A DNA stretch of 64,000 nucleotides from Streptomyces sp. V3I7 (lineage in GTDB: Bacteria; Actinomycetota; Actinomycetes; Streptomycetales; Streptomycetaceae): NCBI RefSeq assembly GCF_030817495.1, contig NZ_JAUSZK010000001.1, positions 5,187,001 to 5,251,000 of the forward strand. The letters run 5' to 3'. Made by a program: the position numbers and the translations under genes. The notes below the pieces were generated by a model, which was not told the DNA's origin, did not search any database, and saw only the letters and a program-made list of their open reading frames with translations. Shown one piece after another: positions 7,000 to 20,194 of the stretch. Numbering within the stretch: the first letter of the stretch is position 1; each line of letters starts with the position of its first letter.

Positions 7000-9173
<2,174 letters not shown>

Positions 9174-14027: not shown

Positions 14028-14368
14028 GGCGGCGCGCCCTGAGCGGACAACTCGCGCGCGGCCGTGGACGGTTCGTATGGCCTGGCGCGGGGCACTCGAT
14101 GGTCGAATGTCGCCGGTGGCTGACGCGGGTCGGAATTTCGGCCCTCGTTGCATGGGCGGCGAATTCATGGCGATGGTGCGGCCATAAAATACAGGAACGT
14201 GTGTTTGAAAAAGGAACAGGCGTTCCGATTGGCAGTCCTGAGCAGCAGGGTCATGATGGATTACATCCACCGGATGTTCAGTGGACTCACCCCGCCCAAA
14301 AATCTCGGGGATGACCCATGCCGCAGATCATGATGATCGCGGTACGCCCTACCGTCCGAGGGATTTCT
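14028..14368. other. Long 5' region upstream of the Gly-Ala protein gene
   Basis: About 340 bp without a convincing gene. The part around 14130-14300 is clearly less GC-rich than the rest of the window and includes short A runs (AAAATA, GAAAAAG), as expected for a promoter or long leader. I looked for a riboswitch-like fold and found none I could support. A GAGGGA at 14358-14363 serves as the ribosome-binding site of the next gene. Confidence 0.5.
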
Positions 14369-15628
14369 ATGACTTCGAAACACACGTCCTTCAAAAGGCG
14401 GCTGGCTCTGCTGGCCTCGGCTGCCGCGCTTGCTGGGGGTGGCGTCATGCTGCCCGGAAGCGCGGTCGCGGCCCCGAACCCGCCGCCGAACCCACAGCTG
14501 AACCAGGCTCGCGGCCAGGGCCAGGGACAAGGCCAACGATTCAAGCAGGGACAGCAACGGAAGAAGGTACGGGGCCAAGGCGCAGGAGCCGGCGCGGGAG
14601 CTGGTGCGGGCGCCGGAGCTAGAGGTGCGGGGGCTGGTGCGGGCGCCGGAGCGGGCGCTGGTGCCGGCGGTGGAGCCGGGGCCGGGGCAGGCGCGGGTGC
14701 CGGGGCCGGTGCGGGTGCTGGTGGCGGTGCCGGTGGAGGCGCTGGTGCGGGGGCTGGTGCGGGTGCTGGTGCGGGTGCTGGTGGCGGCGGTGGAGCCGGT
14801 GCCGGGGCTGGTGCGGGTGCCGGGGCCGGTGCGGGTGCTGGTGGCGGTGCCGGTGGAGGCGCTGGTGCGGGGGCTGGTGCGGGTGCTGGTGCTGGTGCCG
14901 GGGCCGGCGGCGGTGCCGGTGCCGGGGCTGGTGCGGGTGCCGGGGCCGGTGCGGGTGCTGGTGGCGGTGCCGGTGGAGGCGCTGGTGCTGGGGCTGGTGC
15001 GGGTGCTGGTGCGGGTGCTGGTGGCGGCGGTGGAGCCGGTGCCGGGGCAGGCGCGGGTGCCGGGGCAGGTGCCGGGGCCGGCGGCGGTGCCGGAGCGGGC
15101 GCTGGTGCGGGTGCCGGGGCCGGTGCTGGTGCTGGTGGCGGTGCCGGTGGAGGCGCTGGTGCTGGAGCAGGCGCTGGGGCCGGTGCTGGTGCTGGTGCTG
15201 GTGGCGGTGCCGGTGGAGGCGCTGGTGCTGGAGCCGGAGCAGGCGCTGGGGCCGGTGCTGGTGCTGGTGCTGGTGGCGGTGCCGGTGGAGGCGCTGGTGC
15301 TGGAGCCGGAGCAGGCGCTGGTGCGGGTGCCGGCGGTGGAGCCGGTGCCGGTGCGGGCGCTGGGGCAGGAGCCGGGGCTGGTGCGGGGGCCGGTGGCGGC
15401 GCCGGGGCAGGTGCCGGAGCTGGTGGCGGCGCTGGGGCCGGAGCTGGTGCCGGTGGCGGCGCTGGGGCCGGAGCTGGTGCCGGGGCTGGTGCCGGTGCGG
15501 GCGCTGGTGCCGGTGGCGGCACCGGGGCAGGTGCCGGAGCTGGTGCGGGTGCCGGAGCGGGTGCTGGTGCCGGCGGTGGAGCCGGGGCTGGTGCTGGTGC
15601 CGGGGCTGGTGCGGGAGCCGGTGGCTAG
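14369..15628 (+). CDS. Secreted Gly-Ala repeat protein
   Basis: A 419-residue protein. ATG 14369 is preceded by GAGGGA at 5-bp spacing. Residues 1-35 form a Sec signal peptide: basic TSKHTSFKRR, a hydrophobic Leu/Ala core, and a probable AXA cleavage at AVAA before PNPPPNPQLN. A short basic, Gln/Gly-rich region follows (RGQGQGQGQRFKQGQQRKK). From about 14579 to the stop, ~349 residues are only Gly or Ala, except one Arg and one Thr. GA dipeptides are punctuated by GGGAG and GGGAGGG. The DNA repeats with a ~120-bp period at 14641-15060 and ~66/72-bp periods at 15150-15300. Composition recalls silk fibroin GA crystals and the EBNA1 GA repeat. No known function; an extracellular structural or coat-like role is a guess. 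Confidence 0.75.
   Translation: MTSKHTSFKRRLALLASAAALAGGGVMLPGSAVAAPNPPPNPQLNQARGQGQGQGQRFKQGQQRKKVRGQGAGAGAGAGAGAGARGAGAGAGAGAGAGAGGGAGAGAGAGAGAGAGAGGGAGGGAGAGAGAGAGAGAGGGGGAGAGAGAGAGAGAGAGGGAGGGAGAGAGAGAGAGAGAGGGAGAGAGAGAGAGAGAGGGAGGGAGAGAGAGAGAGAGGGGGAGAGAGAGAGAGAGAGGGAGAGAGAGAGAGAGAGGGAGGGAGAGAGAGAGAGAGAGGGAGGGAGAGAGAGAGAGAGAGAGGGAGGGAGAGAGAGAGAGAGGGAGAGAGAGAGAGAGAGAGGGAGAGAGAGGGAGAGAGAGGGAGAGAGAGAGAGAGAGAGGGTGAGAGAGAGAGAGAGAGGGAGAGAGAGAGAGAGG
14579..15625. repeat. Nested tandem repeat encoding (Gly-Ala)n
   Basis: The base unit is a degenerate hexamer GGNGCN. Higher-order copies are nearly identical: the 60 bases at 14701 and at 14821 are the same and those at 14941 differ at one position, giving a 120-bp (40-residue) period. 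At 15152, 15218 and 15290 a second unit recurs at 66 and 72 bp, differing by one hexamer. These in-frame steps suggest recent slippage or unequal crossover, constrained to keep the frame. Because the repeat has no stop codons, long spurious frames exist on both strands. Confidence 0.95.
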
Positions 15629-17100: not shown

Positions 17101-17856
17101 GTGTTCCTGACCATCTCCACGCGCGGCACCACCGCCTCCCCGGCCACCGACCTCGGGTTCCTGCTGCACAAGCATCCCGACAAGGCGCAGACGTTCTCGA
17201 CCTCGTACGGCACGGCGCATGTCTTCTACCCCGAGGCGGACGACGCGCGCTGCACGGCCGCGCTGCTGCTGGAGGTCGATCCGGTGGCGCTGGTCCGCCG
17301 GGGCAAGGGCAACGGCCGCGGCGGAGCGCCCGACGCGGCGCTCGCCCAGTACGTCAACGACCGCCCGTACGCCGCCTCTTCGCTGCTGGCCGTCACCCTG
17401 AGCGGTGTGTTCTCCAGCGCCATGCGCGGCGTCTGCACCGCCCGCCCCGAGCGGGCCGCCGCACCGCTGCCGCTGCGCATCGAGGTCCCCGCGCTGCCGA
17501 CGCGCGGCGGCCCGGACCTCGTACGGCGTCTCTTCGAGCCGCTCGGCTGGACGGTGTCCGCCGAACCCGTGGCGCTGGACGCCGAGTTCCCCGAGTGGGG
17601 CGACTCGCGGTACGTGCGCCTCGCGCTGGAGTCGGAGGCGCTGACGCTCGCGGAGGCGCTGCGCCACCTGTACGTCCTGCTGCCGGTCCTGGACGACGCC
17701 AAGCACTACTGGGTCGCGCCCGACGAGGTCGACAAGCTGCTGCGGGCGGGGGAGGGCTGGCTGGCCGGGCACCCCGAGCAGAAGCTCATCACCAGCCGCT
17801 ACCGGAATTCATTTCGCAGTGCATCGGCCTTCAGGCCGGTGGTGAAGCGAATCTGA
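17101..17856 (+). pseudogene. hen1: Truncated hen1 (RNA 3'-terminal 2'-O-methyltransferase), N-terminal domain only
   Basis: Bacterial Hen1 methylates the 2'-OH of the 3' end of cleaved RNA before Pnkp reseals it. Residues 1 to about 236 match the Hen1 N-terminal, ligase-activating domain (DLGFLLHKHPDKAQTFSTSY, AQYVNDRPYAASSLL, SAMRGVC, EFPEWGDSRYV, LLPVLDDAKHYWV). The family then continues into a methyltransferase domain for a total of roughly 480 residues. Here similarity stops at LITSRYR (about 17808), where IS-element DNA begins; 15 unrelated codons follow to a stop. The methyltransferase half is missing altogether. The remnant keeps normal codon bias, so the loss may be recent. Identification is strong, from characteristic motifs recalled from actinobacterial Hen1. 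Confidence 0.88.
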
Positions 17857-18212
17857 TGGTGGCGACGCGGAGCGTCGCGGACCCGGCGGAGCCGGACACT
17901 GCAGTTCTTTGCCTGCGGCGCGGAGCGTCGGGAAAGCTGGTCTCGGCGGAGCCAGCGCGCCAGGTCGGTGAACTCCTGGCGCAGTCGGCGGGAGGAAACG
18001 CCCTTGAGGGAGTTGACCAGCTTGGTCACGGTGACCTCGGGCGGGAAGTTCACCAGCAGGTGGACGTGGTTGTCCTCACCGTTGAACTACACCAGGTCGC
18101 ACGCGAAGTCCGTACACACCGACCGCGTGATCTGCTCCATCCGCCTCAAGCGGGCATCGGTGAACACCTTGTGCCGGAACTTGGTAACGAAGACCCAGTG
18201 CACATGCATCAC
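17799..18212 (-). pseudogene. Broken IS200-type tnpA (HUH/Y1 transposase)
   Basis: The reading frame from GTG 18212 encodes VMHVHWVFVTKFRHKVFTD and TRSVCTDFACDLV, then hits TAG at 18089-18087 where relatives have Glu (LVEFNGEDNH), and continues with FNGEDNHVHLLVNFPPEV and KLVNSLKGVSSRRLRQEF. The HUH motif appears as HVHLL. After about ARWLRRDQ the sequence no longer resembles the family and the catalytic Tyr region (SGSYFAGS-type) cannot be found. So there is one nonsense mutation at codon 42 plus a replaced C-terminus. The first codons are also divergent. Non-functional. Confidence 0.85.
17822..17841. repeat. IS left-end hairpin
   Basis: An 8-bp stem (one G-T wobble) with TTCA loop, the subterminal structure recognised by IS200/IS605 TnpA in family members. 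It mirrors the right-end hairpin at 19613-19632. Confidence 0.7.
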
Positions 18213-18650
18213 CAAGCACAGTGACGGCCAGTTCTGATCTCCTGTATCTCACCCATGACCCACGTACGTAGGGTGACAGTCATGCAGCTCAGGTACCGGT
18301 TCCGCCTGTACCCGGACACCGGCCAGCAGGCCGCGTTGGCGAAGGCGTTCGGGTGCGCCCGTGTCGTGTTCAACGACGCGGTCCGCGCACGTGAAGACGC
18401 CCGCCAGGCCGGACAGCCGTTCCCGACGGCCGGTCAGCTGTCCCGGAAGCTGATCACCGAGGCCAAGCGGACAGCGGAACGGTCCTGGCTGGGCGAGGTG
18501 TCCGCTGTCATCCTCCAGCAGTCCCTGCGGGACGCCGAAACCGCGTACCGCAACTTCTTTGCCTCCCTCAAGGGCACCCGCAAGGGACCGAAGGCGGGAG
18601 CACCACGGTTCAAGTCCCGTAAGGATGCCCGGCAGTCGATCCGGTTCACC

Positions 18651-18691
18651 TTCCCCAAGCTCTCAACTTCGTTCGAGCAGGGGAGACCCCA
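18651..18691. repeat. 41-bp inserted repeat, copy 1 (frameshifts tnpB)
   Basis: It shares the core CCCCAAGCTCTCAACTTC and then GTTCGAGCAGGGG with copy 2 at 18920-18961. The ends are C-rich (TTCCCC) and G/C-rich (GGGGAGACCCC), giving partly self-complementary termini. Removing exactly 41 bp restores the tnpB frame. Confidence 0.88.
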
Positions 18692-18919
18692 TTCGCCCGC
18701 TGGAACATCACCGGCAGCGGCCGGCTGAACCTGCCGAAGATCGGCGCGGTGAAGGTGAAGTGGTCCCGCACACTGCCCGCCACCCCCACCTCCGTCACCG
18801 TCATCAAGGACGCGGCCGGACGGTACTTCGCCTCCTTCGTCATCGACACCGATCCCGCCGCCGACCGGTCACGGATGCCCGACACCGACCGCACCCTCGG
18901 CATCGATCTCGGCCTGACC

Positions 18920-18961
18920 CTCCCCCAAGCTCTCAACTTCGTTCGAGCAGGGGGGACCCCC
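18920..18961. repeat. 42-bp inserted repeat, copy 2 (in frame in tnpB)
   Basis: It has the same core as copy 1, flanked by CTCCCCC and GGGGGGACCCCC. It adds 14 codons immediately after the RuvC-I motif GIDLGLT. Similar short C/G-flanked palindromic elements are, from memory, dispersed in Streptomyces genomes. Confidence 0.88.
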
Positions 18962-19612
18962 ATCGCGGTTCTGTCCGACGGCACGAAGATCGACTCCCCG
19001 CGCTTCCTGCGGCGCGCGGAGAAGAAGCTGAAGAAGGCCCACCAGGAGCTGTCCCGCAAGCAGAAGGGATCCAAGAACCGCGCCAAGGCCCGCCTCAAGG
19101 TCGCCCGCGCCCACGCCAAAGTCACCGACGCGCGCCGCGAGTTCCACCACCAGCTCTCCACAAAGCTGATCTCCGAGAACCAAGGGATCGCCGTGGAGGA
19201 CCTGTCGGTGGCGGGACTGGCCCGAACGAAGCTGGCCAAGTCCGTGCACGACGCCGGATGGTCATCGTTCATCAGCATGCTGGAGTACAAAGCAGAACGG
19301 TACGGCCGCGCCCTGGTCAAGATCGGCCGGTTCGAACCGACCTCCCAGACCTGCTCCACCTGCGGCGCCAAAGACGGACCCAAACCCCTGAACGTCCGGG
19401 AATGGACCTGTACCGCCTGCGGCACCGTCCACGACCGGGACACCAATGCCGCGATCAACGTAAAGACGGCCGCCGGACTGGCGGTATCGGCCTGCGGAGC
19501 GCCGGTAAGACCAGGAGCGATCCCGGCACAGCGCGAAGAAACAGGAAGCCACGGATTCCCGACCGAACCCCGTGCCGCGTAGCGGCACAGCAACGATCGA
19601 GAAGGCCAGAAT

Positions 19613-19632
19613 CCTCGGGCTTCAGCCCGAGG
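19613..19632. repeat. IS right-end hairpin
   Basis: A perfect 8-bp stem with TTCA loop, followed by the GTCAA that commonly terminates the right end of this family. In intact elements this region also gives the guide scaffold RNA used by TnpB. Confidence 0.75.
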
Positions 19633-19642
19633 AGCAAGTCAA

Positions 19643-20194
19643 TGCTGGAGCACGGACGGCCTCCACGGCGTCCAGCTGGCCCCGTTCCAGATCCTGGCCG
19701 TCCAGGGCCGCAGCCTCGCCGGCCTGCCGCACGACGAGCAGCTCGCCCTGCTCGACCGGCTCGTCGAGCACGACGGCACCGGACTGCTCCGCACCACACG
19801 ACGGCTCTACGTCGACACCAGTGACCCGGAGTCCGTGCGCGCCGGCGTCGACTGGTGGCTGGAGATGACCGGGCGCGGCGGCGAGGGCATGGTCGTCAAG
19901 CCGGTCGGCGCGGTCGTCCGCGACGCCGGAGGACGGCTGGTCCAGCCCGGCATCAAGTGCCGGGGGCGGGAGTACCTGCGGATCATCTACGGCCCCGAGT
20001 ACACCCGCCCGGACAACCTCGCCCGGCTCCGTAAGCGGTCCCTCGGACACAAGCGCTCGCTGGCGATCCGGGGGTACGCCCTGGGTCTTGAGGCCCTGGA
20101 CCGGCTGGCCGGCGGCGAGCCGCTGTGGCGGGTGCACGAGGCGGTGTTCGCGGTGCTGGCGCTGGAGTCGGAGCCGGTGGACCCGCGGCTGTGA
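19643..20194 (+). pseudogene. pnkp: C-terminal fragment of pnkp (polynucleotide kinase-phosphatase-ligase)
   Basis: Bacterial Pnkp has a 5' kinase, a 2',3' phosphatase and a 3' ligase module (about 850 residues) and heals and seals cut RNA with Hen1. Only the last ~183 codons remain. They contain ligase landmarks GGEGMVVKP (motif IV-like) and QPGIKCRGREYLRIIYGP (motif V region with Lys), then the helical C-terminus ending ESEPVDPRL. Kinase, phosphatase and the adenylation-Lys half of the ligase are absent, and there is no start codon or promoter of its own. The frame is open directly from the IS boundary. Its order after hen1 matches the usual hen1-pnkp operon. Confidence 0.85.

Follow-up and report, generated by a model that had tools for sequence, protein, structure and literature searches.

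A probable target-site-to-target-site deletion, marked by an IS200/IS605-family element, in the hen1-pnkp RNA repair operon of Streptomyces sp. V3I7

Introduction

What kind of event leaves a bacterial operon with both of its ends in place and only a mobile element between them? We addressed this question in Streptomyces sp. V3I7 (GCF_030817495.1, contig NZ_JAUSZK010000001.1, positions 5,187,001-5,251,000; hereafter the window, 64,000 nt in full), where the hen1-pnkp RNA repair operon (window positions 17101-20194) is reduced to the start of hen1 and the end of pnkp, separated by an insertion sequence (IS) of the IS200/IS605 type. The protective role of Hen1-Pnkp and of a second RNA-ligation enzyme, RtcB, rests largely on in vitro work. 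Pnkp-Hen1 is described as repairing ribotoxin-cut RNA with 2'-O-methylation, the N-terminal domain of Hen1 activating the ligase (PMC4411300). The genome measures 6.55 Mb in two contigs (99.84% complete), the window lies within the 6.49-Mb contig, and the junctions were read from the assembly alone. Our analysis indicates that a defective IS200/IS605-family element with the target GCTAC very probably marks a deletion of about 2.75 kb that runs from one target site to another and inactivated the operon.

Results

The original prediction, made from the nucleotide sequence, had read the locus as about 236 residues of Hen1 and the last ~183 codons of Pnkp in the order and orientation of a hen1-pnkp operon, with only an IS200/IS605-type element between them and roughly 2.7 kb lost. 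Alignment of the flanks with intact Streptomyces loci upheld the domain identities, their order and their orientation, and the figure of 183 codons proved exact. The N-terminal identity of the Hen1 part also stood, whereas its length had to be corrected to 234 native residues; the open frame then continues into the element for 17 codons, stopping at 17854-17856 and giving a product of 251 amino acids (aa). Residues 1-237 of this open reading frame (ORF; 17101-17856) match Hen1_L (PF12623) at 361 bits, and the C-terminus of PNKP_ligase (PF16542) is matched at 19835-20194 (profile 266-377 of 377; 199-377 in the whole-genome search). Against 14 intact relatives (L032-L045), Hen1 residues 1-234 align at 85-90% identity, and the last 180-182 residues of Pnkp align at 84-92% with a query that started one codon inside the remnant.

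In all 14 of these relatives, 2,750-2,873 bp lie between Hen1 codon 234 and the Pnkp TGG codon found at window position 19646, in line with the predicted loss; three bases of this interval (TGC, 19643-19645) are still kept in the window. Judged against an intact reference (L036; Hen1 488 aa, Pnkp 846 aa), Hen1 ends at native residue 234 of ~488 and the operon has lost the methyltransferase domain, while only the last 183 of ~846 Pnkp residues are left, without the kinase, the phosphatase and the front of the ligase. Thus, of the parts that make up a functional Pnkp-Hen1 system, the locus retains the ligase-activating N-terminal domain of Hen1 and lacks the methyltransferase, the kinase, the phosphatase and a complete ligase. 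Apart from these losses, gene order and the domains of the kept parts match intact Streptomyces operons, and an arginine deiminase gene follows pnkp here as it does in many relatives. The original prediction had called for a search for a second hen1 or pnkp. Genome-wide searches with the Hen1_L and PNKP_ligase profiles returned one match each, namely these remnants, and no second copy of either. The methyltransferase domain of Hen1 and the kinase domain of Pnkp were not searched as families, but no intact protein was found with full-length Pnkp as the query.

The two edges of the deletion share one feature. The window reads hen1-GCTAC/element-TCAA/TGCTGG-pnkp across its junctions, and the pnkp remnant starts at the base that lies directly 3' of GCTAC in intact relatives: at the right breakpoint, 26 of 28 matched relatives (29 scanned) carry GCTAC/TGCTGG or a near variant. 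That GCTAC is the target of this element is supported by its other copies, since the pentanucleotide flanks the left end in 18 of 21 copies overall. These comprise all five own-genome copies with an alignable left end (the window copy and four others), a plasmid copy (L207) and, from other genomes, 12 copies out of 15; the remaining three have GCCAC, GCTAA and GCTGC, each one base off. Three own-genome copies at 67-68% identity were not aligned at their left ends and are not counted. The copies in other genomes came from a search for the left-end core, without its flank and with at most two mismatches, in 150 genomes, which matched 20 loci in 13 genomes; we excluded three own-genome duplicates and, by eye, two loci at which the following sequence was not this element (L211 and L212). 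At the right, the end ..CAAGTCAA is found in seven copies, although the search pattern contained those letters; the window copy, L172, L173, L177, L178, L179 and L207 have this end in common. Better support comes from L172: aligned by BLAST with the window copy, L173, L177, L178, L179 and L180, it gives alignments that stop there within three bases of each other.

Across 18 relatives, GCTAC occurs at 0.00146 per base of the operon, or about six same-strand targets per operon, so that a randomly placed second edge would fall at GCTAC with a chance of about 0.15% per position. A deletion with one random edge is therefore unlikely. Judged by intact relatives, both deletion edges lie exactly 3' of GCTAC, and each junction resembles that of a normal insertion.

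The element itself (Table 1) has the marks of the IS200/IS605 family, as predicted: a truncated Y1 transposase, TnpB in two broken frames, insertion 3' of a pentanucleotide without target duplication, and predicted subterminal hairpins at both ends. Unlike a typical member, it has both genes broken, and it stands between the two different halves of one operon rather than in a rejoined target. Relative to L172 and the plasmid copy L207, 122 alignment columns are absent from the C-terminal coding end of tnpA. The two palindromic inserts in tnpB share one 30-bp core and are absent from both other aligned copies (L172 and L207); among the matches listed, at least 22 at other places in the genome cover that stretch alone.

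Table 1. Features of the disrupted operon, the element within it and the rtcB remnant. Positions are those of the window unless a contig is named.
Feature	Position	Strand	Basis
hen1 5' remnant, codons 1-234 (Hen1_L, ligase-activating N-terminal domain)	17101..17802	+	ORF, profile match, alignment to relatives
GCTAC target pentanucleotide at left junction, native hen1 codons (..SRY)	17798..17802	+	GCTAC at that hen1 position in 7/18 intact relatives
IS200/IS605-type element, 1,840 bp, from CGGAATTC to ..AGTCAA	17803..19642		copy alignments
Left-end subterminal hairpin CATCGGCC-TTCA-GGCCGGTG	17822..17841	+	predicted, z -1.67, not outstanding
tnpA remnant (Y1_Tnp, PF01797), profile 5-89 of 121, one TAG	17955..18209	-	profile match
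tnpB 5' part (HTH_OrfB_IS605, PF12323), frameshifted by palindromic insert	18255..18728	+	ORF, profile, alignment
Palindromic insert 1, core, in tnpB	18654..18683	+	alignment; related copies elsewhere in genome
tnpB 3' part (OrfB_IS605, PF01385; Cas12f1-like_TNB, PF07282), holds second palindromic insert	18749..19582	+	ORF, profile, alignment
Palindromic insert 2, core, in tnpB	18924..18953	+	alignment; related copies elsewhere in genome
Right-end subterminal hairpin TCCTCGGGC-TTCA-GCCCGAGGA, then terminal GTCAA	19612..19633	+	predicted, z -3.89
pnkp 3' remnant, last 183 codons and stop (ligase domain end)	19643..20194	+	profile match, alignment to relatives
rtcB remnant, about last 51 codons	G000:C1:3831940-3832098 (L208; L231 ~7947-8105)		profile match, synteny

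The search of the same genome for further copies, in which 40 matches of 186 candidates were scored, did find others. Besides the window copy, the matches listed include two near-full-length copies at 84-85% identity, three at 67-68%, and remnants at 87-90%; no near-identical copy is among them, full-length copies reaching at most 85% and a 185-bp remnant 90%. Y1_Tnp is matched at nine places in the genome, and five of these, other than the window copy, are near-complete (profile 2 or 3 to 121), so TnpA could be supplied in trans. The element carries several lesions, whereas about 1.25 kb of flank has no stop or frameshift, and the element may therefore have been defective already on arrival. 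By a rough estimate, had its four lesions accrued in place, the flank would have stayed free of them with a chance of about 7%.

We compared the remnants with 29 relatives by the ratio of non-synonymous to synonymous divergence (dN/dS). The median was 0.19 for the hen1 remnant against 0.21 among relatives, and 0.17 against 0.15 for pnkp. By median dN, the window ranks 22 of 30 for hen1, which is ordinary, and 8 of 30 for pnkp, which is somewhat high; the neighbouring deiminase gene is ordinary as well (19 of 28). As neither remnant has a clear excess of non-synonymous change, an old pseudogene is not supported, and the loss looks recent relative to species divergence (dS ~0.4).

The second RNA-ligation route is damaged too. 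RtcB (PF01139) is matched in 379 of 392 genomes of the genus, leaving 13 without a match, and V3I7 has the weakest best match among the 379 (profile 372-426 only, E 6e-12); in a set of 41 genomes, the other 40 all match the whole profile. The surroundings of this rtcB remnant are syntenic with five relatives, and comparison with L233, L234 and L235 places a deletion of 1,028 bp from codon 4 to about codon 346, with nothing inserted and homology of about one base. Genome-wide searches with three families (PF16542, PF01139 and PF09414) revealed no intact RNA ligase. The sole PF09414 match (26.7 bits, under the 27-bit cut-off) was rejected as a candidate; its ORF reads, by eye, like an ATP-dependent DNA ligase. 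Just downstream of the rtcB remnant lies a LAGLIDADG_3 ORF (L231 8145-8978, minus strand), which was not seen in the 14-kb stretches retrieved for the five syntenic relatives.

Across Streptomyces, hen1-pnkp is near-core yet repeatedly lost. In the 150-genome set, the Hen1 N-terminal domain is matched in 135 genomes; Pnkp has some match in all 150, of which 12 are weak only (best E 1e-10 or weaker), and these 12 genomes are without Hen1 as well. The operon is broken at the locus in V3I7, G133 and G100, split by inserted elements in G131, G025 and G006, and cut by contig ends in G001, G050, G084 and G102. The remaining 128 have the operon, counting one with pnkp and no hen1 (G085) and one with a divergent form (G035); G282, from outside the set, is also broken. 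Genomes without the operon are smaller (median 6.55 Mb, n=12) than those with it (8.5 Mb, n=128; Mann-Whitney p 4e-6, relatedness not controlled).

Several of these insertions recur at fixed positions within pnkp. At one shared site, around residue 88, G025 and G006 each have an element of 7-9 kb; the two elements are related, being 88% alike over two 2-kb blocks, with ends TTCCCTG..CAGGGAA (L203 and L204) and a 6-base CGCCAC repeated at the edges. In the G025 copy (L203), which was the one of the two scanned, a gene has a weak tyrosine-recombinase match (Phage_int_SAM_1 at 1e-5, Phage_integrase below cut-off). At another site, around residue 255, G131 and G100 have an element end in common, the G131 element carrying an AAA_25 gene, and the G282 insert shares 625 bp with the G131 element at 92.6% (L202, L048 and L195). 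These site-fixed insertions are separate from the event in the window, but show that the operon has been hit repeatedly.

Other forms of the locus were also seen. In G133 (L047 3033-4124), an internal deletion, with no element present, has joined about 126 N-terminal Hen1 residues in frame to roughly the final 238 residues of Pnkp. In G035 (L046 3049-6290), Hen1 consists of the N-terminal domain only (~220 aa) and the Pnkp next to it is full-length; where Pnkp of L036 has EKHMGS, which we take to be the ligase lysine motif, that of G035 reads EAMHGGS. From its sequence, this pair is perhaps a methyltransferase-free, ligase-dead variant. G085 (L205) has a full-length pnkp and no hen1 in the 4.6 kb upstream.

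Regarding RtcB, four genomes of the 150-genome set have no match (G047, G050, G105 and G121) and V3I7 has the fragment only. Both routes are missing from G121 and V3I7; G050, at 82% completeness and with its Pnkp truncated at a contig end, is not scorable for double loss. Such double losses are too few to claim that the loss of hen1-pnkp and that of rtcB are linked.

Discussion

The original prediction held that simple insertion was insufficient and that two insertions with recombination, or an adjacent deletion, had to be invoked. The insufficiency stands; a random adjacent deletion is unlikely, as both edges lie at GCTAC, and two insertions are made less likely by the matches listed, none of which is near-identical. 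One insertion with a target-site-defined deletion is therefore weakly favoured. Most likely, the element would have inserted a single time, beside either of the GCTAC sites, and a second cut-and-join, at the remaining site on the same strand, would have removed the intervening DNA. This step may have been a one-ended strand transfer by TnpA, joining the right end of the element to pnkp or its left end to hen1; alternatively, it may have been slippage between matching flanks (GCCGCTAC in many relatives), helped by the hairpin of the element. We place the one-ended transfer somewhat short of an even chance; the observed data fit both versions alike. 

A parallel comes from the plasticity zones of Helicobacter, where the authors ascribe adjacent deletions to IS605/IS606 at the breakpoints (PMC2731543). 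As there, an element stands at the edge of a deletion that is attributed to it; unlike there, intact relatives place both edges at the target to the base. That an IS200/IS605 TnpA is able to delete between two target sites in a single one-ended step, and that the same strain is naturally without Hen1-Pnkp and RtcB in a genus whose near-core operon is repeatedly hit by mobile elements and offers them fixed landing sites, is a joint proposition that we consider tentative and, taken as a whole, doubtful.

Several points weigh against a single insertion followed by a recent deletion between target sites. At the left breakpoint, GCTAC is present in 7 of 18 intact relatives, with variants in the rest; at the right, the pnkp flank of V3I7 itself is lost, and its GCTAC would be that of the relatives. 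The flanks may share an 8-base microhomology, as 16 of 28 relatives have GCCGCTAC ahead of the pnkp site. The hairpin at the left end does not stand out, and identity along the element is uneven, the right end being 93-96% identical to L207 and part of the middle closer to L172, which makes a recombinant element possible. The dN of the pnkp remnant, slightly above the median of relatives, leans against a recent loss. Finally, the Helicobacter deletions are themselves deduced from the elements at the breakpoints (PMC2731543), and one-ended deletion by an IS200/IS605 TnpA is hypothetical.

The strongest rival is that the element inserted twice in direct orientation, at a GCTAC in hen1 and at one in pnkp, and that homologous recombination deleted the middle together with one copy. 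This would give both junctions exactly, which also counts against a single insertion, and would agree with the placing of both sites on the same strand and with the uneven identity. It requires two hits in one operon with no such copy surviving elsewhere, the best other copy being ~85-90% identical among the matches listed, and with about six same-strand targets per operon this would be a rare coincidence unless hops are local. We regard this course of events as rather unlikely, though a serious contender.

Less likely still is a RecA-independent deletion through microhomology, with GCCGCTAC as the repeat in both hen1 and pnkp and an ordinary insertion either following or preceding it. The kept hen1 flank ends in GCCGCTAC, and so does the pnkp flank in the 16 relatives mentioned, the rest sharing fewer bases; moreover, the rtcB junction, with its roughly one base of homology, indicates that ordinary deletions occur in this genome. 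However, had the deletion come first, the element would have had to land exactly on the junction, and had it come second, the repeat used would have had to be the element's own flank.

As to the fate of the remnants, we consider it very improbable that selection keeps the 251-aa Hen1 as a working ligase-activating protein. Its frame is open and without excess dN, activation of the Pnkp ligase is ascribed to the very domain that is retained (PMC4411300), and G035 pairs such a Hen1 with a full-length Pnkp. Yet V3I7 has no intact Pnkp ligase to activate, a recent event would give the same dN, and the 90%-identity cluster of this protein holds two member sequences on one contig, the window's own. 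A plasmid origin of the hen1 fragment was considered and rejected: the eight plasmid matches listed are 64-76% identical, and four of the 17 matching records reach at least 80% at their best place, beyond those eight. Separately, a 256-aa Hen1 of Streptomyces aurantiogriseus (P0004; contig of 363 kb) breaks off a few residues past the window breakpoint and has a different tail. The weakest alternative, an assembly artefact at the element, hardly deserves credence: assemblies often break at repeats, but here the contig is a single 6.49 Mb in a 99.84% complete genome, the element differs by ~10% or more from the other matches listed, the junctions follow the target rule, and no stray Hen1_L or PNKP_ligase piece occurs elsewhere in the genome.

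Given the loss of the methyltransferase, the kinase, the phosphatase and the ligase front, together with the deletion in rtcB, we infer that the strain has lost RNA repair, including that of ribotoxin-cut tRNAs. On its gene content, it looks unable to mend broken RNA by either of the common bacterial routes, Hen1-Pnkp and RtcB, and may be sensitive to ribotoxins. Events of this type are already known; the point of interest is the double loss together with the exact target geometry, and none of the papers searched brings polynucleotide kinase-phosphatase together with insertion in Streptomyces. As a candidate for a naturally RNA-repair-null bacterium, the strain could be set beside its sister strains to learn whether Hen1-Pnkp and RtcB do protect against tRNA-cutting toxins and phage defences. 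Furthermore, the target-exact edges allow the idea that single-strand transposases delete between target sites to be tested simply. That a near-core operon is lost repeatedly, and more often in smaller genomes, raises the question of what retains RNA repair in Streptomyces and under what conditions the genus can do without it.

Elsewhere in the window, at 14318-15628, a very long Gly-Ala repeat ORF (436 aa) lies upstream of a luciferase-like monooxygenase gene.

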